NCBI RefSeq assembly: GCF_000959525.1
Contig: NZ_CP009832.1
Location: 2,976,001-3,040,000, forward strand
Direction of reading: 5' to 3'
Length of the DNA stretch: 64,000 nt
Origin: Burkholderia multivorans ATCC BAA-247
GTDB lineage: Bacteria > Pseudomonadota > Gammaproteobacteria > Burkholderiales > Burkholderiaceae
Positions 7,488-36,720 of the stretch are shown here, one piece after another; the first letter of the stretch is position 1; each line of letters begins with the position of its first letter. A program made the position numbers and the translations under genes. The notes below the pieces were generated by a model. The model was given only the letters and a program-made list of their open reading frames with translations, ran no database searches and was not told the origin of the DNA.

Positions 7488-10400
7488 ATGAATCGGCCGC
7501 TGAATCGCATCCTGCCGCGCGTGACCGGAGCCGCATCGGTCTGGACGTGGGTCAAGTGGTCCCTGTTGGCCGCGTTGCTGATCGCGGTCGCCATCGTTGC
7601 ACGCGTCGTGCAGACGGAAATCGAAACGTCGCGATTGCAGGCGCATTACCTGTCCGAGCTGACGCGCGACATCGGCTACACGGTCGAGGCCGGCGCGAGC
7701 GACCACATCCGCTTTCCCGCGAACGGCCCGTACGACCGGCGTCTCGGCTATGCGCTGATCCCCGAGTTCCAGCAACGGCTGCTCGCACGCGGCTTCGTCG
7801 TCGGCAAGCAGGCGCGCGACTCCGCGCGCATGATGTCGCTCGCCGAGCACGGGCTGTTTCTCCCGTACGCCGAGAAGGATCAGACGGGCCTGATGCTGTT
7901 CGATTCGACCGGCTCGCCGCTGTTCGCGTCGGTGTCGCCGCAGCGCGTCTACGCGGATTTCGATACGGTGCCGCGCGTCGTCGTCGACTCGCTGCTGTTC
8001 ATCGAAGACCGCTATCTGCTCGACGCAAACGAACCGAACCGCAATCCGGCGATCGACTGGGGACGCTTCAGCCGTGCGCTCGCCGATCAGGCGCTGCACG
8101 TGGTCAACCATCATCAGGCGCGCCCGGGCGGCAGCACGCTCGCGACGCAGATCGAGAAGTTCCGTCATTCGCCGGACGGCCGTACCGCGACGCCGCCGGA
8201 GAAGCTGCGGCAGATCGCATCCGCGTCGATCCGCGCGTATCTGGACGGCCCGCAGACGATGCTCGCGCGCCGCACGATCGTCGTGCGCTATCTGAATTCG
8301 GTGCCGCTCGCCGCGCGGCCCCATATCGGCGAAATCACCGGCATCGGCGACGGGCTCGCCGCGTGGTACGGCCGCGACTTCAACGAGGTGAACCGCATCC
8401 TGTCCGCCCCGACGACCGGCGACAACATCGACGAACAAGGCGAGACGTTCCGCCAGGTGCTGTCGCTGATCATCGCGCAGCGCGCGCCGTCGTACTTCCT
8501 GAATCGCGGCTATCCGGCGCTGCAGCGGCTGACCGACAGTTATCTGCGGCTGCTCGCGAACGGCGGCGTGATCTCGCCGGCGCTGCGCGATGCGGCGCTC
8601 GCCGCGCACATCGAGCTCAGTGCGCCGCCGGCTGCGGCCCGCGTGCAGTCGTTCGTGTCGCGCAAGGCGATCACGTCGGCGCGCGCATCGCTGCTCGCGG
8701 CACTCGGGATCAGCGATCTCTATCAGCTCGACCAGCTCGACCTCGAAGCGACGAGCACGCTCGACAACGGCGTGCAGCGCGCGGTCGCCGAGCGGCTCGC
8801 GCAGGCGTCGACGCGCGACGGCGCACAGGCGGCCGGCCTGTACGGCTTCGAGATGCTCGCGCCGAAGGACGACCCGTCGCACCTCACGTACAGCTTCACG
8901 CTGTACGAACATCGCAACGGCGCCAACCTGCTGCGGGTGCAGACCGACAGCGTCAACCAGCCGTTCGACGTCAATCGCGGCGGCCGCATCAACCTCGGCT
9001 CGACCGCGAAGCTGCGCACGCTGATCACCTATCTGCAGATCGTGGCCGATCTGCATGCGCGCTACGGGCATCTGTCGAATGCCGAGCTCGCGCGCGTGAA
9101 GCCCGATCCGATCGACGGACTCTCGCGCTGGGCGCTCGACTACTTGTCGCATACGCGCGACCGCTCGCTGCAGGCGATGCTCGACGCGGCGGTCGAACGC
9201 AAGTATTCGGCGAGCCCCGACGTGTTCTATACGGGCGGCGGCGCGCAGGTGTTCTCGAACTTCGAGAAGTCCGACAACGGCCGCATCATGACGCTGCATA
9301 CCGCGTTCGAGCATTCGGTGAACCTCGTGTTCGTGCGGCTGATGCGCGACATCGTCCACTATGAAATGGTGCAGACGGCCGGCCCGTCGTCGTCGTGGCT
9401 CGGCGATCCGGAACAGCGCAAGCAGTATCTGCAGCAGTTCGTCGACGGCGAAAGCAGGGTGTACGTGAAGCGCTACTACACGCGCTATGCCGGGAAATCG
9501 CCCGACGACGCGCTTGCGCTGATGCTGCAGGACGTCCGCAAGTCGCCGCCGAAGATCGCGACCGTGCTGCGCAGCGTCGCGCCGAACGAATCGCTCGCGT
9601 GGTTCGAGGCGCAAATGCGTAAGCAACTGAAGGGCACGCCGGCGGCCGCGCTGTCCGACGACGATCTTGCGGCGCTGTATGCGAAGTACGCGATCGATCG
9701 CTTCAATCTGAACGATCGGGGCTATATCGCGAGCGTGCATCCGCTCGCACTATGGACGCTCAACTATCTGCGCGCACATCCGGATGCGCCGCTCGACGAC
9801 GTGCTGCGCGACAGCCGCGACGCGCGCTTCTATACGTATTCGTGGCTGTACAAGACGCGCTATCACGCCACGCAGGACCGCCGCATCCGTCGCATGGTCG
9901 AACTGCGCGCCTACGGCGCGATCACGAAGGCCTGGCGTGCACTCGGCTATCCGTTTGCCGAGGTCACGCCGTCGTACGCGGCGGCGATCGGCGCATCGGG
10001 CGATCAGCCGGACGCGCTCGCGAAACTGATCGGCCTGATCGCGAACGGCGGCGACAAGGCGCCGACGGAAACGATCACGCGCCTGGACTTCGCGAAGGGC
10101 ACGCCGTACGAAACGCGCTTCGTGCGCGCGCCCGCGCAGCCGCAGCCGGTGCTGTCGCCGGAAATCGTCAACGTCGCACGCACGCTGCTGCGCGACGTCG
10201 TGCTGAACGGCACCGCGCGGCGTCTCGCGGGCGGGCTCACGTTGCCCGACGGCAAGACGCTGCCGGTGTACGGCAAGACCGGTACGGGCGACCAGCGCTT
10301 CAACGTGTATGCGCGCGGTGCGCGGCTGATCGAATCGCGCAAGGTGAATCGCAGCGGCACGTTCGTATTCGTGATCGGCGACCGGTTCTTCGGCGTGCTG

Positions 10401-23648: not shown

Positions 23649-23672
23649 CACAAATTCATTTGTGAAATGAAT
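23649..23672. promoter_or_regulatory. Overlapping inverted repeats between ggt-like gene and glpR
   Basis: CACAAATTCATTTGTG (23649-23664) is a perfect 7-bp dyad with a TC centre, and ATTCATTTGTGAAATGAAT (23654-23672) is a perfect 8-bp dyad sharing half of it. A third, GATTCGCATGAATC, lies at 23681-23694. The AT-rich overlapping dyads look like a protein-binding site within the 202-base divergent region. Confidence 0.55.
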
Positions 23673-23771
23673 CCATGTGTGATTCGCATGAATCGGGTGT
23701 ACCCGCGTGCCGGCGGCGCGACGGACACCCTTACAATATCCGCTTCGTTTTCACGCCCCCGACCGTCGAAC

Positions 23772-24551
23772 ATGAGCAGAGATCCCCGCCTCACCCTGAA
23801 CGCGCGCCAGCAGGAATTGCTCGAATGGGTGCAGCGCGACGGCTTCGTGACCGTCGACGATCTCGCCGCGCATTTCGCCGTCACGCCGCAGACGATCCGC
23901 CGCGACGTGAACTGGCTCGCCGACCTGAACCTGCTGCGCCGCTATCACGGCGGCGCGAGCCTGCCGACCAGCTCCGAGAACGTGTCGTACACCGCGCGGC
24001 AGCGGATGTTCCACGACGAGAAGCGGCGCATCGCGGCGCTCGCGGCGTCGCACATCCCCGATCAGGCGTCGCTCTTCATCAACCTCGGCACGACCACCGA
24101 GGAAGTCGCGCGCGCGCTGAACCGCCATCACGGGCTGCGCGTGATCACGAACAACCTGAACGTCGCGTCGATGATGAGCGGCTACCCCGACTGCGAGGTG
24201 CTGATCACCGGCGGCATCGTGCGGCCGTGGGACAAGGGCATCGTCGGCGAACTCGCGATCGACTTCATCCGGCAGTTCAAGGTCGACTACGCGATCGTCG
24301 GCACGTCCGCAATCGAGGCCGACGGCACGCTGCGCGACTTCGATACGCGCGAGGTGCGCGTCGCGGAGGCGATCATCGAGCATGCGCGTACGGTCTACCT
24401 CGTCGCCGATCATTCGAAGATCGGCCGGCCGGCGCTCGTGCGCCAGGGCCATCTGAGCCAGGTCCATGCGCTGTTCACCGACAAGCCGCTGCCGGCCGAC
24501 ATGGCCGATACGATCGCCGCGGCCGGCACGCAGGTGTACGTCGCCGAATGA
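23772..24551 (+). CDS. glpR: DeoR family repressor of the glycerol-3-phosphate regulon
   Basis: A 259-residue DeoR-type repressor. The N-terminal helix-turn-helix is RQQELLEWVQRDGFVTVDDL followed by FAVTPQTIRRDVNWL (residues ~12-55), and the C-terminal sugar-phosphate-sensing domain carries INLGTTTEEVARAL, VITNNLNVA and the SAIEADGTLRDFD region characteristic of GlpR. The inducer in the family is glycerol 3-phosphate. ATG 23772 gives MSRDPRLTLN, with no strong ribosome-binding site. glpD, glpK and glpF follow 1.1-5 kb downstream on the same strand, which fixes the assignment within the DeoR family. Confidence 0.88.
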   Translation: MSRDPRLTLNARQQELLEWVQRDGFVTVDDLAAHFAVTPQTIRRDVNWLADLNLLRRYHGGASLPTSSENVSYTARQRMFHDEKRRIAALAASHIPDQASLFINLGTTTEEVARALNRHHGLRVITNNLNVASMMSGYPDCEVLITGGIVRPWDKGIVGELAIDFIRQFKVDYAIVGTSAIEADGTLRDFDTREVRVAEAIIEHARTVYLVADHSKIGRPALVRQGHLSQVHALFTDKPLPADMADTIAAAGTQVYVAE

Positions 24552-24852
24552 TCGGCGCGATGCTGCGCCGCACCGACAACTTCAAGTGAAATCAAGAAGT
24601 TGGCCGCGCGGCCGAACCGCTTGTGGATGGCCTGCCTGTCAAACGGAAAATTAACGGGGCACGATTTGTCGTTGCCTGCGCACTCGACTAGACTCCAGTT
24701 CCCCGGCCCGTTTGCCGCTCTGCCTGTGCCAGGGCGAGCGCGAACCGCATGGCCGGCGAATGCAGCTTTTCCCCCCAAGCCATCCCCCGCGGGGTACGTG
24801 CGCCGGCATCGATGCCGGCCGCGCGGGCAGACCGGTTGCCATGGAGAGAACG
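24552..24852. other. Leader region upstream of a small gene
   Basis: A 301-base region after glpR. It contains the promoter candidate listed separately and then ~150 bases of possible 5' leader before the small gene. No riboswitch I know was recognised, and no T-tract terminator follows glpR. Confidence 0.4.
24666..24694 (+). promoter_or_regulatory. Candidate promoter of the 65-residue protein gene
   Basis: TTGTCG (24666-24671) and TAGACT (24689-24694) with a 17-base spacer, about 150 bases before the ATG. Confidence 0.45.
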
Positions 24853-25050
24853 ATGCTGAGTCCGCATGAATTCGCCACGCTATTGCTTGTGAAAGACGCA
24901 CCCGACCAGACCAGCATGGATCGGGAAGAACTCGACGCGCTGCTCGAACAACAGCTCGTCCGCCTCGAAGGGCTCGGATCGGGGCGAAAATACTGCGTGA
25001 CCGAAACCGGTGACGCCACGCTGCGGTCGATCAAGTACCGCTATTCGTAA
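24853..25050 (+). CDS. Small conserved-looking protein of unknown function
   Basis: A 65-residue soluble protein, MLSPHEFATLLLVKDAP... with an acidic middle (SMDREELDALLEQQLV) and a C-terminal half (GRKYCVTETGDATLRSI) that reads like a small winged-helix wing. GGAGA lies 5-9 bases before ATG 24853. Codon use is normal for the genome. I do not recognise the family; a DNA-binding role is only a guess from the helix-strand order. Confidence 0.65.
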   Translation: MLSPHEFATLLLVKDAPDQTSMDREELDALLEQQLVRLEGLGSGRKYCVTETGDATLRSIKYRYS

Positions 25051-25140
25051 GTCCCGCCGTTTGTGACCTGCCCGCGGCCGGCCTCCCCGGCCGCGCCGCG
25101 TTTTCAGGCCCACCGCTCCCGTTGTTTCGCTCCGCTCGCT

Positions 25141-25509
25141 TCAGCCGCCGCGCAACGTCGGATCGACCGCCGCGCGCCAGCTGACGGCCTGCGCCCGCGC
25201 GCCGTTCAGATACGCGACCCAGCCGGCGCGGCCCGGCGCGTCCGGCGCCGCGTAATGCGCGGAAAGTTCGTTTACGAACGCGCAGTAGTTCGCCTGGGAC
25301 AGCCCGCGATAGCGCTTCGCGACGTACGCGTCGTACATCGCCGAATAGACCGGCTGCGCGTCCGCGCCCCAGTCGCGCGCGGTGCCGCCGCACGCCGTCT
25401 GTAGATCGACGAACGACGGCGCCCGCCAGTTGCCGGCGAGCGGCGGCGTGCCTGCGCTGCAGGCCGCCAGCACCACGGCGCACGCGCCGATCCCCATCCC
25501 AATACGCAT
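25141..25509 (-). CDS. Putative lipoprotein
   Basis: A 122-residue exported protein with a lipoprotein signal: MRIGMGIGACAVVLAAC, lipobox LAAC with the modified Cys17. The mature part has two more cysteines (TACGG and NYCAF), which could form a disulfide, and tyrosine-rich helices (YSAMYDAYVAKRYRGLSQ). It lies between the small gene and glpD, on the opposite strand. No function can be assigned. Confidence 0.75.
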   Translation of the reverse strand: MRIGMGIGACAVVLAACSAGTPPLAGNWRAPSFVDLQTACGGTARDWGADAQPVYSAMYDAYVAKRYRGLSQANYCAFVNELSAHYAAPDAPGRAGWVAYLNGARAQAVSWRAAVDPTLRGG

Positions 25510-25578
25510 GATTCACCTCGCGAAACGGTCGATCCCGCCAGTATCGTCCGGGAACGCGCGGCGCGCCACCCGCCCCTC

Positions 25579-25667
25579 TTTTTCGAACTTTACTTTTTCG
25601 ATTTCGTTCGTTAAATTTCGAATTCGAACATTTCGTGTTCGATCCATGAACTCGACTCTCGAACGAT
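25579..25667. promoter_or_regulatory. TTCG/CGAA-rich operator-like region upstream of glpD
   Basis: About ten copies of TTCG or CGAA occur within 90 bases, many spaced by 8-11 bases (for example TTTCGAATTCGAACATTTCG at 25616-25635), in an AT-rich island immediately before glpD. GlpR operators in other bacteria are built from TTCG half-sites, so this is probably the GlpR-binding region; it may also reach the divergent lipoprotein gene. Confidence 0.6.
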
Positions 25668-25678
25668 AAGGACAGCAG

Positions 25679-27202
25679 GTGAATCAACCGAATCGCTACG
25701 ATCTGCTCGTCGTCGGCGGCGGCATCAACGGCGCGGGCATCGCGCGCGATGCGGCCGGCCGCGGCCTGTCGGTTTTGCTCTGCGAGCAGGACGATCTCGC
25801 ATCGCACACGTCGTCGGCCAGCACGAAGCTGATTCACGGCGGTCTGCGCTATCTCGAGTACAAGGAATTCGGGCTCGTGCGCAAGGCGCTGCAGGAGCGC
25901 GAGACGCTGCTGCGCGCGGCGCCGCACATCATGTGGCCGCTGCGCTTCGTGATGCCGCACATGCCGAACCTGCGTCCGGCCTGGTTGATCCGCATCGGCC
26001 TGTTCCTCTACGATCACCTCGCGAAACGCGAGCTGCTGCCCGGCTCGCGCGGCATCGACATGCGCCGCCATGCGGCCGGCGCGCCGCTCGTCGATTCGAT
26101 CCGGCGCGGCTTCGTCTATTCGGACGGCTGGGTCGACGATGCGCGCCTCGTCGTGCTGAACGCGCTCGACGCGAAAGAGCGCGGCGCCGAGATCCTCACG
26201 CGCACGAAGCTCGTGTCGGCCGAGCGCCGCAGCGACGAATGGGAAGCGCGGCTGCGGCAGCCGGACGGCGCGATCCGCGTCGTGCGTGCGCGTGCGATCG
26301 CGAACGCGGCCGGCCCGTGGGTCGGCGACGTGCTGCACGGCGCGCTCGGGCGCGGCGCGCATCATAGCGTGCGGCTCGTGAAAGGCAGCCACATCGTCAC
26401 GCGCCGGCTGTTCGATCACGATCACGCCTACATCTTCCAGAACCCCGACAAGCGGATCATCTTCGCGATCCCGTACGAGCGCGACTTCACGCTGATCGGC
26501 ACGACCGACGTCGAATACACGAGCGATCCGGCGCGCGTCGCGATCGATCGCGACGAGACGCAGTATCTGTGCGATTCGATCAACCGCTACTTCAAGCGCA
26601 AGATCTCGCCGGCCGACGTGCACTGGACCTATTCCGGCGTGCGGCCGCTGCTCGAAGACGAAAATGCCGCGAACGCGTCGGCCGTCACGCGCGACTACCG
26701 GCTCGAGATGGACGACGGCGAAGGCGCACCGCTGCTGTCGGTGTTCGGCGGCAAGATTACGACGTTCCGCAAGCTCGCCGAAGAAGCCGGCGACATGCTG
26801 TGCCGCGCGCTCGGCCGCGACGCACCGGCATGGACCGCCGGCGCCCCGCTGCCGGGCGGCGACATCGCGAACGCCAAATTCGATGCGTTCGCCGACGCAT
26901 TCGCGAAGCGCCATCGCTGGCTGCCCGCACCGCTCGCGCGCCGGTATGCGCGCGCGTACGGCACGCGTGCCGCGCGCGTCGTCGGCAATGCGCAGTCGCT
27001 GGCCGATCTCGGCGCCGAGATCGTGCCCGGCCTGTTCGAGGCGGAGCTGCGCTACCTGCGCGATACCGAATGGGCGACCTGCGCGCAGGACGTGCTGTGG
27101 CGCCGCTCGAAGCTCGGGCTGCACGTCGCGCCGGGCACGCTCGACGCGGCGAGCGCCGCGCTCGATGCGTGGTTCGCGGCCGCGCACGCGCCGCACGCGT
27201 GA
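25679..27202 (+). CDS. glpD: Glycerol-3-phosphate dehydrogenase, aerobic
   Basis: Membrane-associated flavoenzyme that oxidises glycerol 3-phosphate to dihydroxyacetone phosphate and feeds ubiquinone. The 507-residue protein opens with the FAD-binding fold YDLLVVGGGINGAGIARDAA (residues 7-26) followed by ASHTSSASTKLIHGGLRYLE, a GlpD signature; FGGKITTFRKLAEEAGD and the C-terminal domain complete it. The start is GTG at 25679, with AAGGA 7 bases upstream. glpK follows after 98 bases. It sits downstream of the TTCG-rich operator region. Confidence 0.94.
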   Translation: MNQPNRYDLLVVGGGINGAGIARDAAGRGLSVLLCEQDDLASHTSSASTKLIHGGLRYLEYKEFGLVRKALQERETLLRAAPHIMWPLRFVMPHMPNLRPAWLIRIGLFLYDHLAKRELLPGSRGIDMRRHAAGAPLVDSIRRGFVYSDGWVDDARLVVLNALDAKERGAEILTRTKLVSAERRSDEWEARLRQPDGAIRVVRARAIANAAGPWVGDVLHGALGRGAHHSVRLVKGSHIVTRRLFDHDHAYIFQNPDKRIIFAIPYERDFTLIGTTDVEYTSDPARVAIDRDETQYLCDSINRYFKRKISPADVHWTYSGVRPLLEDENAANASAVTRDYRLEMDDGEGAPLLSVFGGKITTFRKLAEEAGDMLCRALGRDAPAWTAGAPLPGGDIANAKFDAFADAFAKRHRWLPAPLARRYARAYGTRAARVVGNAQSLADLGAEIVPGLFEAELRYLRDTEWATCAQDVLWRRSKLGLHVAPGTLDAASAALDAWFAAAHAPHA

Positions 27203-27300
27203 TCGATCGCCCGAGCAGTTTGCTTGACCGACGTTGATTCACCGACGCGCCGCGGCATACGGCGCGCATCACAACTAATCCACGGATGGAGATGAGAGAC

Positions 27301-28803
27301 ATGCAGGACCAGTACATCCTCGCGCTCGACCAGGGCACGACGAGCTCCCGCGCGATGCTGTTCGATCGGCAGGGCAATATCGTGTCGATCGCGCAGAAAG
27401 AGTTCGAACAAATCTACCCGCAGCCCGGCTGGGTCGAGCACGACCCGCAGGAAATCTGGTCGACGCAGGCGGGCGTCGCCGCCGAAGCCGTCACGCGCAC
27501 CGGCCTGAACGGCACGTCGATCGCCGCGATCGGCATCACGAACCAGCGCGAGACGACGATCGTCTGGGATCGCGAAACGGGCCAGCCCGTCTACAACGCG
27601 ATCGTCTGGCAGGACCGCCGCACCGCCGACTTCTGCGATTCGCTGAAAAAGCAGGGGCTCGAAGCGAAGGTGCGCGCGAAAACGGGCCTGCCGATCGACT
27701 CGTACTTCTCCGCGACGAAGATCCGCTGGATCCTCGACAACGTGCCGGGCGCGCGCGACAAGGCGCGTCAGGGCAAGCTCGCGTTCGGCACGGTCGACAG
27801 CTGGCTCGTGTGGAACTTCACGAAGCACGAGCTGCACGTGACCGACGTGACGAATGCGTCGCGCACGATGCTGTTCAACATCCATACGCGCCAGTGGGAC
27901 GACGAGTTGCTCGAACTGCTCGACATCCCGCGCAGCATGCTGCCGGAAGTGAAGGCGTCGTCGGAGATCTACGGCCATACGAAAACCACCGTGTTCGCGT
28001 CGAAGATTCCGCTCGCGGGCATCGCGGGCGACCAGCACGCGGCGCTGTTCGGCCAGATGTGCACGACGTCCGGGATGGTGAAGAACACGTACGGCACCGG
28101 CTGCTTCCTGATGATGAATACCGGCGACAAGCCGATCGAGTCGAAGAACAACCTCGTGACGACGATCGCCTGGCAGATCGGCGACGACGTGCAGTACGCG
28201 CTCGAAGGCAGCATCTTCATCGCGGGCGCGGTCGTGCAGTGGCTGCGCGACGGCCTCGGCATCATCAAGACGGCCGCCGAGATCGAAGCGCTCGCCGCGA
28301 GCGTGCCGCACAGCGACGGCGTCTATCTGGTGCCCGCGTTCGCCGGCCTCGGCGCGCCGCACTGGAACGCGCGCGCACGCGGCTCGCTGTTCGGCGTCAC
28401 GCGCGGCACGCGCGACGCGCATCTCGCGCGCGCGGCGCTCGATGCGATCGCGTATCAATCGCTCGACGTGCTGGCCGCGATGGAAGCCGATTCGGGCATC
28501 AGCATCGGCGAGCTGCGCGTCGACGGCGGCGCGAGCGCGAACAACCTGCTGATGCAGTTCCAGGCCGACCTGCTCGGCGTCGATGCGGTGCGTCCGCAGA
28601 TCACCGAAACGACGGCACTCGGCGCCGCGTATCTCGCGGGCCTCGCGATCGGCTACTGGAAGAATCTCGACGAAGTGCGCAGCCAGTGGCAGCTCGATCG
28701 CCGCTTCGCACCGTCGATGCCCAAGCAGCAGGTCGAGCGCTGCATGGCCGGCTGGCAGCGCGCGGTGCGTGCTGCAAAGGCCTGGGCCGACGACGCACAG
28801 TAA
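27301..28803 (+). CDS. glpK: Glycerol kinase
   Basis: Phosphorylates glycerol with ATP to glycerol 3-phosphate. The 500-residue FGGY-family kinase has [13 protein letters not shown] at residues 9-21, the FGGY signature region [15 protein letters not shown], and [17 protein letters not shown] near residue 410. Three ATGs are close together (27286, 27292, 27301); 27301 is chosen because GGAG at 27288 is 9 bases upstream and it gives the family N-terminus. It lies between glpD and glpF in a probable operon. Confidence 0.95.
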
Positions 28804-28884
28804 GCGCCGCGTCGCGAACGACACAACAACAACGCCGGCGGACCGCGCATTGCGCGAGTCCGCCGCGATCTACGAGAGACAAAC

Positions 28885-29601
28885 ATGTCACCCTATATCG
28901 CAGAATTCATCGGCACGGCGATCCTCGTGCTGCTCGGCAACGGCGCGGTCGCGAACGTCCTGCTCGCGAAGACCAAAGGCAAAGGCGCCGATCTGATCGT
29001 GATCGTGATGGGATGGGCGATGGCCGTATTCGTCGCCGTCTACGTGACCGCATCGTTCAGCGGCGCGCATCTGAACCCGATCGTCACGATCAGTCTCGCG
29101 CTCGCCGGCAAGTTCCCGTGGGCGAAAGTCGGCGGCTACGTGCTCGCACAGATGCTCGGCGGGATGGCCGGCGCGCTGCTCGTCTGGCTCGCGTATCGCC
29201 AGCACTTCGCGAAGGAAGCCGATGCGGACCTGAAGCTCGCGGTGTTCTGCACCGCGCCCGCGATCCGCAGCGTCACGCATAACGTGCTGACCGAAGCGAT
29301 CTGTACCTTCGTGCTGATCCTCGGCGTGCTCTATCTCGCGTCGCCGCAGGTCGGACTCGGTGCACTCGACGCGCTGCCCGTCGGCCTGCTCGTGCTCGGC
29401 ATCGGCATCTCGCTCGGCGGCCCGACCGGCTATGCGATGAGCCCCGCGCGCGACCTGTCGCCGCGCATCATGCACGCGCTGCTGCCGATCCCCGGCAAGC
29501 GCGACAGCGACTGGCGCTATGCATGGGTGCCGGTGATCGGCCCGCTGCTCGGCGGCGCCGCGGCCGCCGCACTGTATCTGCATCTGCACACGACGGTCTG
29601 A
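28885..29601 (+). CDS. glpF: Aquaporin-family glycerol facilitator with altered NPA motifs
   Basis: A 238-residue channel protein with six membrane helices, expected to let glycerol enter passively before GlpK traps it. The two half-helix motifs are not canonical: the first is HLNPIVT (NPI rather than NPA) and the second is MSPARDLSPR, where the asparagine is a serine. Arg after the second motif, which lines the selectivity filter, is kept. The start ATG 28885 has GAGA 7-10 bases upstream. It follows glpK by 81 bases. Confidence 0.87.
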   Translation: MSPYIAEFIGTAILVLLGNGAVANVLLAKTKGKGADLIVIVMGWAMAVFVAVYVTASFSGAHLNPIVTISLALAGKFPWAKVGGYVLAQMLGGMAGALLVWLAYRQHFAKEADADLKLAVFCTAPAIRSVTHNVLTEAICTFVLILGVLYLASPQVGLGALDALPVGLLVLGIGISLGGPTGYAMSPARDLSPRIMHALLPIPGKRDSDWRYAWVPVIGPLLGGAAAAALYLHLHTTV

Positions 29602-29709: not shown

Positions 29710-30945
29710 TCAGCGCAGCAGCGATTTCAGCTTCACGCCGGTGTCCGCGACGTCGGCCGGCGTCACGTCCGCCGCGCGCTCGACGAGCATCCTCGCGACC
29801 CGCATCTCCTTCACCCACGCGGACGCGCAGCCGAATCCGCTCGCCGCGACGAGCCGCGCCTGCGCATCGAAATGGAAGCGGATTTCCGCGTCGTCGTCGA
29901 GCACGCGCGCGACGGTCCGCTCGCCGAGCGCGGGCTCGCCGACGACCTGCAGTTGCGCGTCGTACTGATCGGACCAGAACCAGCGCACGTCGCGATACGG
30001 TTCGCCGGCGCCCAGCATGTTGCGCGCGGCGACGCGCGCCTGCGTCTCGGCGCCGTGCCACGTCTCCTGCCGCACGCGACGTGCCGACCGGCCGCCAGGA
30101 AACACCGCGACGTCGCCGGCCGCGTAAATGCCGCGCGCCGACGTCTCGAGCCTTTCGTCGACGACGATCCCGCGATCGACCGCGAGCCCCGCGTCGCGGG
30201 CGAGTTCGTCCGCCGGCTCGATGCCGATCCCGACGACGACCGTATCGGCGATCAGCATGTCGCCGTCGTCGAGCATGACCGCGAGCGCGCCGCCCGCCGT
30301 GCGCTCGATTGCGACCGGCGCGCGATTGAGCCGGATCGCGACGCCGTGCCGAACGTGCAGCGCATGCACGCGCGCCGCGATCGTGTCCGGCACCGCGCGG
30401 CCGAGCACGCGCGACGCCGCGTCGAGCACGGTCACGCGACAGCCGCGCTGGCGCGCCGACGCCGCGACTTCGAGCCCGATGAATCCGCCGCCGATCAGCA
30501 CGATGCGCGCATCGCGCACGAGCCGCGCGCCGAGCGCCGCGGCGTCGTCGAGCGTGCGCAAGGCGAGCACGCCGTCAAGATCGGCACCGGGAATCGCGAG
30601 GCGCCGCGCGCGGGCGCCGGTCGCCAGCAGCAGCGCGTCGTACGCGAACGCGCGGCCGTCCGACACGCGTATTTCGCGCGCCGCCGGATCGATCCGCTCG
30701 ACGGTTGCGACGATCGGCTCGATCGCGTCCGCACGCCAGGCGTCGCGATCGCGCAGCGCGCATTGCGCGGCACTGCGCTCGCCGGTCAGCACGCCTTTCG
30801 ACAGCGGCGGCCGTTCGTAGGGCAGATGCGGTTCCGCACCGATCAGCACGATGCGCCCGCGCCAGCCGTGTTCGCGCAGCACCTGCGCCGCACGGCCGCC
30901 CGCGTGGCCCGCGCCGACGATCGCCATCACGCGGTCGTTCGTCAT
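29710..30945 (-). CDS. FAD-dependent ferredoxin reductase, MocF-like
   Basis: A 411-residue NAD(P)H:ferredoxin oxidoreductase of the oxygenase-coupled class. FAD-binding motif AIVGAGHAGGRAAQVLR lies at residues 8-24, then ERPPLSKGVL, typical of putidaredoxin-reductase relatives; the NAD(P)H motif is IVLIGGGFIGLEVAASA (~148-164), and AGDVAVFP marks the second FAD site. Its start is 4 bases after the stop of the Rieske ferredoxin gene, so the two are translationally linked. The likely role is passing electrons to that ferredoxin and on to the membrane oxygenase. In rhizobia the same trio is mocDEF. Confidence 0.88.
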   Translation of the reverse strand: MTNDRVMAIVGAGHAGGRAAQVLREHGWRGRIVLIGAEPHLPYERPPLSKGVLTGERSAAQCALRDRDAWRADAIEPIVATVERIDPAAREIRVSDGRAFAYDALLLATGARARRLAIPGADLDGVLALRTLDDAAALGARLVRDARIVLIGGGFIGLEVAASARQRGCRVTVLDAASRVLGRAVPDTIAARVHALHVRHGVAIRLNRAPVAIERTAGGALAVMLDDGDMLIADTVVVGIGIEPADELARDAGLAVDRGIVVDERLETSARGIYAAGDVAVFPGGRSARRVRQETWHGAETQARVAARNMLGAGEPYRDVRWFWSDQYDAQLQVVGEPALGERTVARVLDDDAEIRFHFDAQARLVAASGFGCASAWVKEMRVARMLVERAADVTPADVADTGVKLKSLLR

Positions 30946-30949
30946 GCCG

Positions 30950-31258
30950 TCATACCTCGATCAGCACACGGCCGTCCTCGATCCGCGCGCGATACGTGCG
31001 CAAGCGCTCGCATGCGGGTGCCGACAATGCGCGGCCGTCGCGCACGTCGAAGCGGCCGTTGTGCTTCGGACATTCGATCACGTGGTCGATCACGAGGCCG
31101 TCCGCGAGATGCACGCGTTCGTGCGTGCACATCCCGTCGCTCGCGTACACGTGTCCGTCGATCCGGTAGATCGCGTACGTGCGGCCGTCATGGTCGAAGC
31201 GCACGACGTCCTCGTCGTCGATGTCGTCGAAGCCGACGGCGTCGATCCATTGCGTCAT
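30950..31258 (-). CDS. Rieske-type [2Fe-2S] ferredoxin, MocE-like
   Basis: A 102-residue electron carrier with the Rieske cluster ligands CTHERVHL (Cys, His) and CPKHNGRFD (Cys, His), spaced as in the ferredoxins of multicomponent oxygenases. It lacks a signal peptide and membrane anchor, so it is cytoplasmic. GGAGAC 8 bases before ATG 31258 sets the start. It lies between the oxygenase gene (35 bases upstream) and the reductase gene (4 bases downstream), the order expected for an oxygenase-ferredoxin-reductase operon. Confidence 0.9.
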   Translation of the reverse strand: MTQWIDAVGFDDIDDEDVVRFDHDGRTYAIYRIDGHVYASDGMCTHERVHLADGLVIDHVIECPKHNGRFDVRDGRALSAPACERLRTYRARIEDGRVLIEV

Positions 31259-31293
31259 GATGCGTGTCTCCTTCGTTGGCAGTTGAATGAACG

Positions 31294-32379
31294 TCATGCG
31301 CGCGCCGCATCGGGCACCGGCCGCACGACGTGATGGGACGGATCGCGCGTCTGCCGGATCAGCGCCGGCACGATCTCCGCGTAGGCCGCGAGCGTGCTCG
31401 GATACGGCGGCGGCATGTCGGCCTTCACGGCGTCGTGCAGCTTCGGCAGCGCGTGGAACGGCACCATCGGAAACATGTGATGTTCGACGTGGTAGTTCAT
31501 GTTCCAGTACAGAAAGCGGAACACCGGATTCATCATCACGGTCCGGCAGTTGCGCCGATGATCGAGCACGTTCTCGGGCATGCCCGCGTGCTGCGTGAGC
31601 CCGAAGTAGAGGTACAGCCACGCGCCGTACAGGCTCGGCAAGCCGACATACAGCAGCGGCAGGATCGTTCGCGCATACAGCGCCGCGCCGATCGCGAGCG
31701 CATGGATCGCGAGGTGGATGCGCGCCTCGCGCACGACCTTCGGCCATTCCGATTCGGGCACGTAGGTCTGCTCCTCAGCGTCGAGCCGGCCCGTGAACGC
31801 GGCCGCGATCATCTTGCGCAGCTCGCTCGCGACATGCTTGAGCGCGATCACGTTCAGCGCGAGCGCGAGCCAGTCGGTCGGCTTCGGTGCGGCGATTTCC
31901 GGGTCGCGGCCGACGACGAGCGTGTCCGTGTGATGGCGTGCATGGCTCCAGCGCCACACGGTTGCGCGGCGAAATACCTGGAACGACGCGACCTGATAGA
32001 GCACGTCGTTCATCCAGCGCGTGCGAAATGCGGTGCCATGCCCGCACTCGTGCCAGCGCGAATCGGCCGGGCTGCAGTAGAGCGTGCCGTACAGGAAGAA
32101 CGCCGGAATCGCCCACGCCGAATGCGCGCGCCACGCGAACCATGCGAGCACGCCGCTCGCGACGATCGACGCGTACCAGGTCAGCGTGTCGCGTATCGCG
32201 CGTGCATCGCTGCGCTGCATCAGCTGCTTCATCAGCGGCCGCGGCACCGCGCACCGGTACCACTCGGCATTGACCAGCCCGGCGGCACGCGCGCGCTCGC
32301 CCGCGCCGCCGATCATGCGGTATGCGTGACGGCGTGCCGCCGCGGGGCGCCGGTGCAGGTCGTCGTCGGTATGGGTCAC
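31294..32379 (-). CDS. Membrane fatty-acid-desaturase-type oxygenase, MocD-like
   Basis: A 361-residue integral membrane di-iron enzyme. Histidine boxes are HECGH (in SRWHECGHGTAF), HARHH (in WSHARHHTDT) and HVEHH (in NYHVEHHMFP), with four hydrophobic helices between them. The fold is shared by fatty acid desaturases, AlkB hydroxylases and the rhizopine oxygenase MocD. Linkage to its own Rieske ferredoxin and reductase, and to inositol-type catabolic genes, favours a MocD-like O-demethylating oxygenase over a lipid desaturase. The start is taken as GTG 32379 because GGGAG lies 7 bases upstream; ATGs further upstream have no ribosome-binding site. Confidence 0.82.
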   Translation of the reverse strand: MTHTDDDLHRRPAAARRHAYRMIGGAGERARAAGLVNAEWYRCAVPRPLMKQLMQRSDARAIRDTLTWYASIVASGVLAWFAWRAHSAWAIPAFFLYGTLYCSPADSRWHECGHGTAFRTRWMNDVLYQVASFQVFRRATVWRWSHARHHTDTLVVGRDPEIAAPKPTDWLALALNVIALKHVASELRKMIAAAFTGRLDAEEQTYVPESEWPKVVREARIHLAIHALAIGAALYARTILPLLYVGLPSLYGAWLYLYFGLTQHAGMPENVLDHRRNCRTVMMNPVFRFLYWNMNYHVEHHMFPMVPFHALPKLHDAVKADMPPPYPSTLAAYAEIVPALIRQTRDPSHHVVRPVPDAARA

Positions 32380-32472
32380 GCGTGTCTCCCGATTCTCGTT
32401 CGCCGGCATGCGCACCTTGCGCACCGGCATGGAAGCGAAATTAGGCGACCGCCCTGCCCCGCTCAATCGAAA

Positions 32473-32494
32473 CGTTGACGAAATTTCGCCATCG
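32473..32494. promoter_or_regulatory. LacI-type operator 1, overlapping the regulator's promoter
   Basis: A 22-bp inverted repeat, CGTTGACGAAA paired with TTTCGCCATCG-type right arm (core palindrome CGAAATTTCG). TTGACG (32475-32480) within it can act as -35, with TAGCGT 17 bases on as -10, giving an autoregulated promoter for the LacI gene. It is 94 bases upstream of the divergent oxygenase start, so it may also control that operon. A near-copy is at 33664. Confidence 0.72.
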
Positions 32495-32552
32495 CTTTAG
32501 CGTTGGCGCACAACGCCACGCGATGCTGGCGACGACAACGATGGAGACGACC

Positions 32553-33614
32553 ATGGCCGACCCTTCCGGTCCGCGCTGGCGCAAGCGCACCGCGCGCTTC
32601 GACGAGATCGCCGCGCTCGCGGGTGTCAGCACGACGACCGTCGACCGCGTGCTGAACGAGCGCGGCAGCGTGTCGGCCCGCGCGCGCGAACGCGTGGTGG
32701 CGGCCGCGCGCCAGCTCGGCGTGCCGCGCCAGCTGCCCGACACGCGGCACGGGCTCGTCCACGTCGACGTGCTGTTGCCCGACACCGACGCGCCGTTCTT
32801 CCACCGGCTGCAGCAGGCGCTGCAGCGCTCGCTGCAGATGCTCGACCGGCGCGTCGTCGTGCATCGAACCATCGTCGCCGCCGCCGACGACGCGCGTGCC
32901 GCCGCGCTGATCGAACGTCCCGCATACCGGCGCGCGGCGCTGATCGTCACCGCGCACGACACGCCGCGCGTGCGCGACGCGCTGACCGCCGCGATCGCGC
33001 GCGGCGAGCACGTCGTGACGATGGTGACGGACATCGGCGGCATTGCTCGCGTCCACTATGCGGGCATCGACAACTACCGCGCCGGACGCACGGCCGGCTA
33101 CTACATCGGCCGGCTCGCCGCGCGGCCCGGGCGCGTGCTGCTGCTCGGCGGCCGCATGGCTTACCGCGCGCACGCGCAGCGCATGGCCGGCTGCATGGAT
33201 CAGCTCGGCGAAGCGTTCGGCGCGTTGCGCTGCGACGCGCCGATCGAAACGCTCGACGAGGACGACCGCTGCTACCGCGCGGTCACGAACGCATTGCGCG
33301 CGGGCGACGAGGTCGCCGCAATCTACAACAGCGGTGCCGGGTCGGCCGGCATCGAAGCCGCGCTGCGCAACGCGGGCGCGGCCGGCCGCGTCGTCTGGAT
33401 CGGGCACGAGATGCTCGATCAGCACCGCGCGTATATCGAGGCCGGTTCGATGGACATCGCGATCGACCAGGACCCGGACGGTCAGGCGATCTCCGCGCTG
33501 CAGCACGTGCTGCACGCGTGCGGCATCGTCGAGCAGCGGCCGCCCGCCGACCCCGTCGAATTCCGCGTGTTCTGCGCCGCGAACGTGCGCACGAGCGCGT
33601 ATCTGCCGGCCTGA
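32553..33614 (+). CDS. LacI family transcriptional regulator of the moc-like locus
   Basis: A 353-residue regulator. The N-terminal LacI helix-turn-helix is FDEIAALAGVSTTTVDRVLN (residues ~12-31), with hinge ARERVVAAARQLG; the rest is a periplasmic-binding-protein type I fold that would bind a sugar or cyclitol. The start is ATG 32553 with GGAG 6 bases upstream; upstream ATGs at 32523 and 32541 fall inside the probable leader. It is divergent from the oxygenase operon and followed by three enzyme genes. Two matching 22-bp dyads, one in its own promoter and one before the next gene, are its likely binding sites. Confidence 0.88.
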   Translation: MADPSGPRWRKRTARFDEIAALAGVSTTTVDRVLNERGSVSARARERVVAAARQLGVPRQLPDTRHGLVHVDVLLPDTDAPFFHRLQQALQRSLQMLDRRVVVHRTIVAAADDARAAALIERPAYRRAALIVTAHDTPRVRDALTAAIARGEHVVTMVTDIGGIARVHYAGIDNYRAGRTAGYYIGRLAARPGRVLLLGGRMAYRAHAQRMAGCMDQLGEAFGALRCDAPIETLDEDDRCYRAVTNALRAGDEVAAIYNSGAGSAGIEAALRNAGAAGRVVWIGHEMLDQHRAYIEAGSMDIAIDQDPDGQAISALQHVLHACGIVEQRPPADPVEFRVFCAANVRTSAYLPA

Positions 33615-33663
33615 CGCGGCCGCGCGGCGCGCGTGATGCAGCGCGCGAAAAAATCGACGGCCG

Positions 33664-33685
33664 CGTTGGCGATTTTTCGTCAACG
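33664..33685. promoter_or_regulatory. LacI-type operator 2, upstream of the isomerase/dehydrogenase genes
   Basis: The 22-bp dyad with arms CGTTGGCGA and TCGTCAACG. Read on the minus strand it matches operator 1 (32473) at all but three positions. It ends 91 bases before ATG 33777. Confidence 0.72.
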
Positions 33686-33776
33686 TTCGTCATGCAATGC
33701 GCGCCGCGCGGCCGTACAGTTGGCAGCCATCCAGTTCAACACGGTTCGACACCGGCTCAACGACGGACGGCAGACG

Positions 33777-34853
33777 ATGGCTGACACGATCCTCATCGGC
33801 GTGAATCTCGACGGCGTGCTCGAGCACGACGGCTTGCCGCCGCCGACGCCGGCCGAGCGGTTCCGGATGATCGCCGACGCGCGCGTGTTCGACTACGTCG
33901 AGAAGAACCCGGTGAGCGGCGAAGATCTGACGCCGTACTTCGCGCTCGTCGAGCGCCATGCGCTGCCGATTCGCGTGATCGGCGGCATCTGGCGCGCGGG
34001 CCGCGACGATGCGCACGTGGCCGAAATCGTCGATGCGGGCGCGCGCTTCGGCAGCACGGTGCTCAACTGCCAGCTGCATGCTCATCACGCCGACGGCCAT
34101 CCGCTGTCGGACCGCGAAGTCGCCGACTTCTACCTGCGCACGTACGAACGCGGCGAGCGCGTCGGCTGCCTGCCGTGCCTCGAAGTGCACGTCGACATGT
34201 GGAGCGAACGCTTCATGCGGATCGCACGCGTCGCGCGGCACGTCGAGCAGGCCGGCGTGCCGTTCCGGCTCACGCTCGACCATTCGCACCTGCTGTTCAA
34301 GATCGGCAATCGCGCGGAACTCGACGCATCGGGATTGCACGGCACGGCCGAGCGCATGCGCGAGAGGCTGGACCCCGCGTCGCCGTCGGCCGTCTACACC
34401 GAATGGATCGCGCGCGGCTGGGTCCGGCATGCGCATGCGCGCAGCGTGATCCCGAACAATCCGGACAACCGCTCGATGCGCCGTGCGGACGGCCGGCCGG
34501 GACGCGGCATCCAGTATCCGTTCGTCGCACCCGCGCCCGGCACCTATCACGATGCCTGGCATGCGGGTGCGCTCGACACGTGGAAGGCCGCGCTACGCGC
34601 GCTGCTGCAGTCGCAGGTGCACGCACGGCCTGTGCAGGTCGAGCAGATCAGCTGCGAATTCATTCCGTTTCCCGACTACGGCGGCGGCGCGCGCTACTCG
34701 ATCTTCGACAACAACGTCGCGTGCGCGCAGTGGCTGCGCGACACATGGCACGCACTCGCCGCGACGCCGGACGATACGCACGGCGATGCGGCCGCGCACG
34801 ACGTCACCCGTTTCGCTCACGCTTCCGTTCGACACCAGAGGACCGCACGATGA
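33777..34853 (+). CDS. Xylose-isomerase-like TIM-barrel protein of unknown function
   Basis: A 358-residue cytoplasmic protein. I do not recognise a named family, but CLEVHVDMW and LTLDHSHLLFKIGN read as the metal-ligand strands of the xylose isomerase-like/AP endonuclease 2 TIM barrel, and EQISCEFIPFPDYGGG resembles the last strand with another acidic ligand. This suggests a metal-dependent sugar or cyclitol isomerase, epimerase or dehydratase. The ATG at 33777 is the first after the operator and fits the normal N-terminus MADTILIGVNLDG. Its last four bases overlap the next start (ATGA), so the two are translationally coupled. Confidence 0.75.
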   Translation: MADTILIGVNLDGVLEHDGLPPPTPAERFRMIADARVFDYVEKNPVSGEDLTPYFALVERHALPIRVIGGIWRAGRDDAHVAEIVDAGARFGSTVLNCQLHAHHADGHPLSDREVADFYLRTYERGERVGCLPCLEVHVDMWSERFMRIARVARHVEQAGVPFRLTLDHSHLLFKIGNRAELDASGLHGTAERMRERLDPASPSAVYTEWIARGWVRHAHARSVIPNNPDNRSMRRADGRPGRGIQYPFVAPAPGTYHDAWHAGALDTWKAALRALLQSQVHARPVQVEQISCEFIPFPDYGGGARYSIFDNNVACAQWLRDTWHALAATPDDTHGDAAAHDVTRFAHASVRHQRTAR

Positions 34854-35677
34854 CGCAAGCCTTCCATTTCTCGCTGAACCGGATCTGCGCGCCGCACATC
34901 CCGTTCGATCGCTATGTCGCGCTGTGCCGGCAGCTCGGCATCGACGCGATCGAGATCCGCAACGATCTCGACGGCGCGGAGCTCGCCGACGGCACGCCGG
35001 CCGCCGCGATCCGTGCGACGGCCGAAGCCGCCGGCGTGACGATCCTGACGATCAATGCGCTGCAGCGCTTCGACCAGTGGAACGCAGCGCGCGCGGACGA
35101 AGCGACGCTGCTCGCCGACTACGCCGCGCAATGCGGCGCACGCGCACTGGTGCTGTGTCCGACCAACAGCCGCGACGATGCGCGCGATGCCGAGACGCGA
35201 CATGCCGATCTCGTGAACGCGCTGCGCGCATTGAAGCCGATCCTCGAAGCGCGCGGGCTGCTCGGCTTCATCGAGCCGCTCGGCTTCGAAGAATGCGCGC
35301 TGCGCCGCAAGTCGGACGCGGTCAAGGCGATCTACGCGGCGGCCGGAGAACCGGTGTTCCGTCTCGTGCACGACACGTTCCATCATCACCTCGCCGGCGA
35401 ACCGATCTTCTTCCCGAATCTGACGGGACTCGTTCATCTGTCGGGCGTCGAGGACGACGACCTGCCGGTCGAGCGGATGCGCGACGGCCATCGTGTGCTC
35501 GTCGGCCGCGCGGACCGGCTCGGCAACGTGCGGCAAGTGCGCGAGCTGCTTGCGCGCGGCTATCGCGGCGCGCTGTCGTTCGAGCCGTTCGCCACCGAGA
35601 TCGCGCAGGCGCACGACATCGCCGCGCGGCTGCGTGCGAGCATCGACTACGTGCAGGGCGAACTCGAGCGCCGCTGA
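34850..35677 (+). CDS. Sugar phosphate isomerase/epimerase family protein, MocC/IolI-like
   Basis: A 275-residue TIM-barrel enzyme of the IolE/IolI/MocC group. Visible ligands are GLLGFIEPLGFEEC (Glu), RLVHDTFHHHLAGE (Asp, His) and the final GALSFEPFATE (Glu). Relatives isomerise or dehydrate inososes in inositol breakdown; MocC does an undefined step in rhizopine catabolism. Its ATG overlaps the stop of the preceding gene by four bases, and the dehydrogenase gene follows after 56 bases that include a pentanucleotide repeat. Confidence 0.82.
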   Translation: MTQAFHFSLNRICAPHIPFDRYVALCRQLGIDAIEIRNDLDGAELADGTPAAAIRATAEAAGVTILTINALQRFDQWNAARADEATLLADYAAQCGARALVLCPTNSRDDARDAETRHADLVNALRALKPILEARGLLGFIEPLGFEECALRRKSDAVKAIYAAAGEPVFRLVHDTFHHHLAGEPIFFPNLTGLVHLSGVEDDDLPVERMRDGHRVLVGRADRLGNVRQVRELLARGYRGALSFEPFATEIAQAHDIAARLRASIDYVQGELERR

Positions 35678-35699
35678 GCATGCGCACATGCGCGCAACC

Positions 35700-35724
35700 G
35701 ACAAGACAAGACAAGACAAGACAA
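35700..35724 (+). repeat. Pentanucleotide microsatellite (GACAA)5
   Basis: Five perfect copies of GACAA lie immediately before GAGAACACG and ATG 35734, so the repeat and the ribosome-binding site are adjacent. The total length is 25 bases. Confidence 0.95.
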
Positions 35725-35733
35725 GAGAACACG

Positions 35734-36720
35734 ATGATCGAATTCGCACTGTTCGGCGCCGGCCGAATCGGCAAGATCCACGCCGCAAACCTCGCGCGCC
35801 ATCCCGGCGCGACGCTGAAGTACGTGGTCGACCGGCACGCACCGTCGGCCGACGCACTCGCACGCGCGCACGGCGCGCAGGCCGCCGACGTCGAACGCGC
35901 GCTCGGCGACGCATCGGTCGGCGCGGTCGTCATCGCGTCGAGCACCGACACGCATGCGGACCTGATCGTCGCGGCCGCGAACGCCGGCAAGGCGGTGTTC
36001 TGCGAGAAGCCGGTCGACCTCGGCGTCGAACGAGCGCGCGAATGCGCGCAACGCGTTCGGCAAAGCGGCATCACGTGCATGATCGGCTTCCAGCGCCGCT
36101 TCGATCCGACCTTCGCCGCGCTGAAGGCGCGCGTCGAGCGCGGCGAGATCGGCGATCCGGAAATGCTGATCGTCACGAGCCGCGATCCGGGCGCGCCGCC
36201 GGCCGACTACATCCGCAGCTCGGGCGGCATCTTCAAGGACATGCTGATCCACGACTTCGATGTGTTCCGCTGGATGCTCGGCGACGAAGCGCAGACGTTG
36301 CATGCGACCGGCAGCTGCCTGACCGATCCTGCGGTGCGCGATGCGGGCGACATCGATTCGACGGCCGTGACGATCCGCACGCGACGCGGGCTGCTGTGTC
36401 AGATCAACACGTCGCGTCGCGCCGCGTACGGCTACGACCAGCGCTTCGAACTGCTCGGCAGCCGCGGGATGCTGCAGGCCGGCAACGTGCGGCCGACCGA
36501 AGTGAGCGTGTGGTCCGCGCAGGGCATCGCGACGGACGTACCCGAGCCGTTCTTCCTCGAACGCTATCGGCATGCCTACGCGGCTGAGCTCGCGCATTTC
36601 GTCGACGCGCTGCGCGACGGCACACAGGTTCGGACGACGATCGACGACGGGCTTGCGGCGCTCGAGCTCGCCGAAGCCGCGACGACGTCGTGGCGCACGG
36701 GGCGCGCGATCGACCTGTGA
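35734..36720 (+). CDS. Gfo/Idh/MocA family oxidoreductase, inositol 2-dehydrogenase-like
   Basis: A 328-residue NAD(P)-dependent dehydrogenase. The nucleotide-binding site is FALFGAGRIGKIHAANLA (residues 4-21), the family catalytic lysine is in FCEKPVDLG (~91-99), and the conserved GGIFKDMLIHDFDVFRW (Asp, His) follows at ~166-182. This pattern is that of myo-inositol 2-dehydrogenase (IolG) and MocA. It would oxidise a cyclitol hydroxyl to a ketone. Only a weak AAGAGA ribosome-binding site separates it from the GACAA repeat. It is the last gene of the probable operon begun at 33777. Confidence 0.88.
   Translation: MIEFALFGAGRIGKIHAANLARHPGATLKYVVDRHAPSADALARAHGAQAADVERALGDASVGAVVIASSTDTHADLIVAAANAGKAVFCEKPVDLGVERARECAQRVRQSGITCMIGFQRRFDPTFAALKARVERGEIGDPEMLIVTSRDPGAPPADYIRSSGGIFKDMLIHDFDVFRWMLGDEAQTLHATGSCLTDPAVRDAGDIDSTAVTIRTRRGLLCQINTSRRAAYGYDQRFELLGSRGMLQAGNVRPTEVSVWSAQGIATDVPEPFFLERYRHAYAAELAHFVDALRDGTQVRTTIDDGLAALELAEAATTSWRTGRAIDL

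Follow-up and report, generated by a model that had tools for sequence, protein, structure and literature searches.

A MocDEF-type oxygenase in a LacI-controlled, IolG-linked gene cluster of Burkholderia multivorans, probably a methyl-inositol unit and not the rhizopine pathway itself

Introduction

Why would a Burkholderia carry genes that resemble part of the rhizobial rhizopine (moc) system next to genes typical of inositol use? The question is raised by a locus of Burkholderia multivorans ATCC BAA-247, at 29710-36720 of the 64,000-nucleotide stretch of DNA analyzed here (the window; C3:2976001-3040000 of a 6.32-Mb genome in three contigs). Open reading frame calls and family scans placed seven genes there in two divergent operons, as an earlier note made from the sequence alone had described them. 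The minus-strand operon encodes a membrane oxygenase (D), a Rieske ferredoxin (E) and a flavin adenine dinucleotide (FAD) reductase (F), and the plus-strand genes encode a LacI-family regulator, two TIM-barrel proteins (TIM1 and TIM2) and an IolG-type dehydrogenase. The note had called the whole a rhizopine-like locus for an O-methyl inositol or inosamine. Our analysis points to a methyl-inositol unit, controlled by LacI and linked to IolG, that contains a MocDEF-type oxygenase and is probably not the rhizopine pathway itself. We put at roughly two in three the probability that the locus serves, under LacI control, growth on an O-methyl-inositol, likeliest a plant compound of the pinitol, ononitol or sequoyitol kind, a substrate that we infer. 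The reading draws on gene content, homology, a conserved operator, linkage to inositol genes in relatives, and a separate inositol (iol) cluster in the same genome; the inositol link proposed in the earlier note is supported, as is O-methyl-inositol as the likely substrate class.

Results

Two rhizobial loci served as references, L028 on a Rhizobium indicum plasmid and L031 on Sinorhizobium meliloti pSymA, which carry candidates for mocC, mocA, mocB, mocR, mocD, mocE and mocF with a few other genes between them. The names were assigned from products and gene order (L031 has no annotation), and matches of 79-88% between the mocC, mocA, mocB and mocR candidates of the two loci support the assignment; the term rhizopine-type, as used for both, rests on gene content and not on demonstrated rhizopine use. 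D (31297-32430, minus strand) is a MocD-like protein of the FA_desaturase superfamily (PF00487) with three His boxes, at H127, H163 and H314, and a start that lies between 32316 and 32430; it is 52% identical to its L028 counterpart. E (30950-31258, minus strand, 102 amino acids), a MocE-like [2Fe-2S] protein with a C-x-H...C-x-x-H motif, is 60% identical to its counterpart and scored 142.5 bits for TIGR02377 (MocE_fam), above the cut-off of 136.15. F (29710-30945, minus strand, 411 amino acids), a MocF-like FAD/NADH ferredoxin reductase with the Pfam domains Pyr_redox_2 and Reductase_C, is 44% identical. The MocDEF homology proposed earlier was therefore upheld. D showed the same identity, 52%, to rhizopine-type MocD as to the MocD-like proteins of LacI-linked rhizobial loci. 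By sequence, the D-E-F module is common to this locus and to moc-type loci, and the remaining genes are not moc.

As a member of the FA_desaturase superfamily, D could also hydroxylate or desaturate a lipid or some other membrane substrate, with its neighbors there by chance. With the curated NCBIfam lipid desaturase models DesA and DesB, however, D reached 18.3 and 42.9 bits where the cut-offs are 500, and D adjoins LacI-TIM1 in the Burkholderia loci read and has a predicted operator in common with the IolG operon. Lipid desaturase identity, which the earlier note had named as refuting its reading if a phylogeny showed it, was rejected on these scores, and we regard a lipid role as highly improbable.

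The genes around the module were then compared with those of the rhizopine-type loci. The regulator (32553-33614, plus strand, 353 amino acids) has a LacI domain (PF00356) and a Peripla_BP_4 sugar-binding domain (PF13407), whereas L028 MocR combines GntR and Aminotran_1_2 domains and found no match in it; LacI in place of MocR had been noted correctly. IolG was 26-28% identical to two Gfo/Idh/MocA proteins of L028, and neither TIM1 nor TIM2 matched L028 MocC at an E-value of 0.01. Across the genome, the best match for one MocA candidate was 33% over about 200 residues, and the best match for MocC was IolE (47%). A MocB homolog, 55% identical to that of L028, is encoded at C3:1600709 in the separate iol cluster, and none in the locus. 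No aminotransferase or deaminase domain was found in the eight proteins scanned.

Trees of D were built from 95 rows. L001-L020 were omitted because they nearly duplicate the Burkholderia rows. Matches with stop codons were divided there and represented by their longest piece (L025, L038 and L086) or dropped (L032), and the short matches L057 and L128 were dropped; the tree is in effect unrooted, as two lipid desaturase outgroups were saturated (branch length 10). The window D grouped with the other Burkholderia rows (7 rows; support 99 in the Shimodaira-Hasegawa-like approximate likelihood ratio test, SH-aLRT), and this clade was nested within 32 beta-proteobacterial rows (support 91 and 92 in two trees). 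Ten alpha-proteobacterial rows, including both rhizopine-type MocDs, formed a separate group (support 97). In one of the trees the MocD of S. meliloti pSymA was sister to the LacI-linked MocD from pSymB of S. meliloti (97), and that of R. indicum was placed among LacI-linked rhizobial proteins (forks 83-94). The approximately unbiased test rejected trees that joined the two rhizopine-type MocDs to the 7 Burkholderia rows (p-AU 7.8e-62) or to all 32 beta rows (p-AU 0.0005); the constrained groups had been named after the tree had been seen. A first clade test, which set the window, L021, L028 and L031 against the rest, gave p-AU 2.8e-95 and proves little because its constraint breaks up the Burkholderia rows as well. 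Uniting the 32 beta rows and the 10 alpha rows in one clade was not rejected (p-AU 0.117).

These results bear on true rhizopine catabolism, in which 3-O-methyl-scyllo-inosamine would be degraded as by mocCABRDEF. The homology of D, E and F to MocD, MocE and MocF, the MocB homolog elsewhere in the genome and the failure to reject a common beta and alpha clade all speak for it, but MocR, MocA and MocC were not found in the locus, the domains for handling an amino group were not seen in the scan, and the trees set D apart from the rhizopine-type MocDs. A rhizopine locus proper was rejected on the absence of MocA, MocC and MocR from the locus and on the placement of D, and we consider rhizopine breakdown here quite unlikely. 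The label rhizopine-like thus did not hold for the locus as a whole, nor did a grouping of D with rhizopine-type MocD.

The inositol link was carried first by IolG (35734-36720, plus strand, 328 amino acids), which scored 413.6 bits for TIGR04380 (inositol 2-dehydrogenase; cut-off 355) and had the inositol 2-dehydrogenase 4hkt as its best PDB match. TIM2 (34850-35677, plus strand, 275 amino acids), a xylose-isomerase-like barrel (PF01261), had 4hgx and 2q02 as its closest solved chains (PDB sequence match, E-value 8.5e-37); the latter we take to be a Salmonella inositol-island protein. TIM2 was also 52% identical to the TIM barrel of a rhizobial LacI-MocDEF locus, L022. One article describes iolI2 as uncharacterized (PMC10783015), and a literature search pairing iolI2 with inosose gave no match. 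The same contig holds the separate iol cluster (C3:1595-1610 kb), with IolE, IolD, a bifunctional IolC, IolG, the MocB-like binding protein, ATPase and permease candidates, and a TIM barrel.

Gene runs in relatives tie the module to inositol uptake and use. A Paraburkholderia locus, L166 (genome G270), has a one-strand run D-E-F-TIM1-TIM2-MocB-ATPase-permease, in which no gap exceeds about 120 bases, and a divergent LacI, and so supplies the transporter that is absent beside the window locus; its D was only 46-50% identical to the window D. The order in L167 was IolG-permease-ATPase-MocB-TIM2-TIM1-LacI, and in Paraburkholderia L038 TIM2 starts a run TIM2-MocB-ABC-IolC (ABC, ATP-binding cassette). 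The Sphaerotilus locus L056 has IolE/MocC-like, IolD, IolC, MocB, ABC genes, LacI, D, E and F, then PanB-like and PurU genes, followed by TIM1, RpiR, LacI, TIM2 and IolG. Inositol markers (IolG, IolC/D/E, a MocB-type protein or TIM2) were sought in each fetched stretch. Among 25 beta-proteobacterial D loci from outside Burkholderia, 9 had at least one (L038, L054-L056, L058-L060, L062 and L064), and seven of these 9 had MocB-type proteins (48-59%). Overall the figure was 30/92 D loci, twelve of the 92 having been picked by hand, or 24/86 without six Burkholderia loci. Each marker class was found in 0/20 unrelated 20-kb control windows, all from Burkholderiaceae.

Genes for folate one-carbon enzymes by family were also found near D: PanB-like genes (Pantoate_transf) in 14/92 loci and PurU (Formyl_trans_N) in 5/92, both in 0/20 controls. 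Such neighbors would be expected if a one-carbon unit is released. In rhizobia and Sphaerotilus (L022, L028, L031, L056 and others) PanB-like genes adjoin MocDEF, together with PurU at some loci, and are a likely outlet for the one-carbon unit of the demethylase. A further arrangement, perhaps a two-oxygenase variant, was seen in L027. There a sterol-desaturase-family gene, a Gfo/Idh gene, a sugar isomerase and an ABC transporter precede a MocD relative (8917-10005); iolD and iolE are close by, and no ferredoxin match was found.

The divergent promoter between LacI and D contains a 13-mer, TTTCGTCAACGTT, that recurs upstream of TIM1. The first candidate operator (32468-32491) includes TTTCGTCAACGTTTCG on the minus strand (32468-32483), part of an imperfect palindrome in which 32476-32491 is one base off TGACGAAATTTCGTCA; the operator site is half of the palindrome TTGACGAAATTTCGTCAA. 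The second candidate (33675-33690, plus strand), upstream of the TIM1-TIM2-iolG operon, has 2 mismatches to the 16-mer with the first 13 bases exact. The D promoter was the single exact match to the 16-mer in the whole genome; at up to 2 mismatches there were 27 matches, the site before TIM1 among them, compared to 4 for the reversed pattern, and no wider regulon is claimed. Both sites were kept, with 0-2 mismatches, in 26/26 Burkholderia loci (L001-L021 and L033-L037; L001 is the window itself and a few genomes were read twice).

Outside the genus, the palindrome was found before D at up to 3 mismatches in 6/7 Paraburkholderia- or Trinickia-type loci with a LacI at least 60% identical (L038, L039, L041, L051, L052 and L166; the exception was L167). 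In L038 it stands before D with 2 mismatches and before the divergent TIM2-MocB-ABC-IolC run with 3. L052 has a second copy before a divergent TIM2, with 4 mismatches, which is weak because 4/20 control windows matched at that level (1/20 at up to 3 mismatches). At up to 4 mismatches the window itself had two more matches away from the locus, at 22775 and 52435 (the latter with 3). Because the operator sequence is conserved, it is a good inference that one regulator controls both operons through these predicted LacI operators. At 12 chosen alpha-proteobacterial D loci the regulators were 9 LacI-type, 2 MocR and 1 RpiR; LacI beside D is not peculiar to Burkholderia.

A close D (E-value below 1e-200) was present in 23 of the 41 Burkholderia genomes of the family sample, our own included. 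The same 23 had TIM1, and the remaining 18 had neither. Because D and TIM1 are neighbors, their co-occurrence reflects co-inheritance of the cluster and is not independent functional evidence; the cluster is nonetheless more than chance. One Burkholderia genome (G298) has two D copies, on contigs C4 and C5, with TIM1 near each, and the TIM1 of G263 (C19) has an internal TGA. In B. cenocepacia the whole cluster was seen on a conjugative 267-kb plasmid (L021; NZ_CP091015.1 23432-42556), in a copy without the HAD gene that trails the cluster in the window. In annotation, genes of the cluster are called fatty acid desaturase or xylose isomerase, for example.

TIM1 (33777-34853, plus strand) matched no Pfam family at an E-value of 0.001, PF01261 included, and no NCBIfam family. 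Its fold is a xylose-isomerase-like TIM barrel that resembles ketose 3-epimerases and xylose isomerases, and its own branch keeps E136, D168, H171, H220, R222 and E294, residues that look metal-site-like. TIM1 was rare in surveys of 398 phylum, 399 order and 369 class genomes (3, 8 and 1 genomes at E-value limits of 1e-20, 1e-15 and 1e-15; the samples overlap and each counts our own genome). Outside the genus it was found in 5 of 39 family genomes checked: G270 (L166, beside D), three with caffeine-type clusters (L164, L165 and L136), and that of L167. The family has a second branch that is often beside oxygenases, including those of caffeine-type N-demethylase clusters (L131, L132, L136 and L163-L165), a label that we gave because these clusters have Rieske and xanthine-permease genes and because of the species name for L132. 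An oxygenase lay within 6.5 kb of TIM1 in 12/16 loci outside the Burkholderia D cluster (all except L130, L137, L141 and L167), compared to 1 weak match in 20 controls. This count is a lead and not a test, because several seeds came from the same loci and six loci represent one caffeine-type cluster. A literature search on a TIM barrel with ndmC, ndmD and caffeine gave no match. We offer, as a speculative and rather doubtful idea, that TIM1 founds a family, so far undescribed, of TIM-barrel proteins that depend on a metal and assist oxidative demethylation. Its own branch would act with MocDEF in O-demethylation of inositols and the other with Rieske and 2-oxoglutarate oxygenases, including caffeine-type N-demethylases, and both would handle the hydroxymethyl intermediate or the formaldehyde released; we hold this part just as loosely.

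Several results weigh against a methyl-inositol unit. No inositol marker was found in 62/92 D loci, including Paenibacillus-type, Verrucomicrobia-type and nine Caballeronia-type loci (12 of the 62 were shorter than 15 kb, and a TIM2 match in L052 fell short of the criteria), which indicates that this family of oxygenases is not tied to inositols. The Burkholderia loci read had neither PanB-like nor PurU genes, and most of the other family genomes with a close D that were checked for TIM1 lack it. No operator was present within 4 mismatches in the iol cluster of the same genome (L125), so co-regulation of uptake with the locus lacks support here; nor was one found in L167, L056, L058 or L059, whose LacI relatives are 60, 55, 48 and 50% identical. 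Of the six Burkholderia loci with long flanks, three had an altered iolG, cut short in two (L033 and L036) and moved by about 1.4 kb in the third (L037), and the gene may therefore be dispensable. Finally, since a common beta and alpha clade was not rejected, D may share a function with rhizopine-type MocD.

The marker-free D loci favor demethylation of a non-inositol O-methylated sugar, such as a methyl-hexose, and the likeness of TIM1 to ketose 3-epimerases and xylose isomerases would suit TIM1 and TIM2 as sugar isomerases. IolG, however, exceeds the curated inositol 2-dehydrogenase cut-off, and relatives of the whole cluster adjoin iolC, iolD and MocB-type genes. We therefore judge a non-inositol sugar unlikely, if worth keeping in mind, and retain an O-methyl-inositol as the probable substrate.

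No transporter gene adjoins the locus, as had been stated before; it is flanked by glp-type genes on the upstream side and by a HAD phosphatase on the downstream side. The upstream genes (23667-29601, identified by eye) look like glpD, glpK and a glpF-type aquaporin gene, with a DeoR-type regulator. Directly 5' of the iolG start codon, at 35700-35726, there is a perfect pentamer repeat (GACAA x 5.4), a possible slippage site; none of the six Burkholderia loci compared showed it.

Discussion

How might such a unit work? The methyl-inositol would enter through a MocB-type sugar ABC transporter, here encoded in the separate iol cluster, and would lift LacI off the two copies of its operator. Electrons would pass from NAD(P)H to F, then to E, and on to the membrane di-iron oxygenase D. 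D would hydroxylate the O-methyl carbon, yielding a hemiacetal that gives free inositol and formaldehyde. IolG would then oxidize the freed inositol to inosose, TIM2 and perhaps TIM1 would isomerize the keto-inositol to the form accepted by IolE, and the iol pathway would complete the breakdown. The demethylation step was reportedly assigned to mocDEF by Bahar in 1998. Because involvement of mocDEF in rhizopine use has been reported (PMC10107442), D-E-F can be proposed as an O-demethylase.

The locus resembles the rhizopine mocCABRDEF system of Sinorhizobium and Rhizobium in the order and identity of D, E and F, and reference titles report that rhizopine use needs the inositol pathway. It differs in having LacI and not MocR, IolG and not MocA, TIM barrels that do not match MocC, no MocB in the locus, and a D on a separate branch of the tree. 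A further likeness is found in LacI-linked MocDEF-PanB clusters of rhizobia (L022-L024, L026 and L030), where LacI is divergent from D-E-F as in our locus and a TIM barrel is present in L022-L024 and L026. However, these clusters have a PanB-like gene and neither TIM1 nor IolG in the stretch, and the LacI of L022 is only 26% identical to that of the window.

In Pseudomonas syringae from woody hosts, mocDEF lies beside xylA2 (a second xylose isomerase gene) without mocCABR, and its function is called unclear; unlike our locus, neither LacI nor IolG is mentioned in the accessible part of that article (PMC5132102). The arrangement is a precedent for mocDEF outside rhizopine loci. Bacterial iol clusters likewise have an IolG-type dehydrogenase and a xylose-isomerase-like TIM barrel, and the MocB-type ABC transporter recurs in relatives of our locus, but the locus has no IolA-E of its own and the oxygenase sets it apart. 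Caffeine-type N-demethylase clusters hold a TIM1 relative among oxygenase genes; they have Rieske oxygenases and a xanthine-type permease in place of MocDEF, and their TIM1 is only 32-34% identical and on the other branch.

Pinitol-type methyl-inositols are abundant plant solutes. In root exudate of Mimosa pudica, pinitol was the most concentrated compound (145 uM), and Rhizobium mesoamericanum in that exudate raised its mocDEF homologs 1.5- to 2.1-fold and its iol genes as well, according to the accessible part of PMC5789663. The authors interpret the mocDEF rise as rhizopine use; pinitol fits the mocDEF and iol increases as well as rhizopine does. Genes for formate or formaldehyde, sought in the same part of the article, were not found.

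Among the matches listed in searches of open-licence literature on mocD/mocDEF, rhizopine, O-methyl inositol, Burkholderia and pinitol catabolism, there was no description of this cluster and no gene set for demethylating pinitol-type methyl-inositols. The locus is thus a testable candidate gene set for methyl-inositol demethylation, present in 23/41 Burkholderia genomes sampled. Since the two rhizopine-type MocDs fall inside a LacI-linked alpha-proteobacterial group, our data also suggest a wider, LacI-linked system for methyl-inositols, of which rhizopine mocDEF would be one offshoot. Reading mocDEF as a sign of rhizopine use, in annotation or in transcriptomes, may therefore be wrong.

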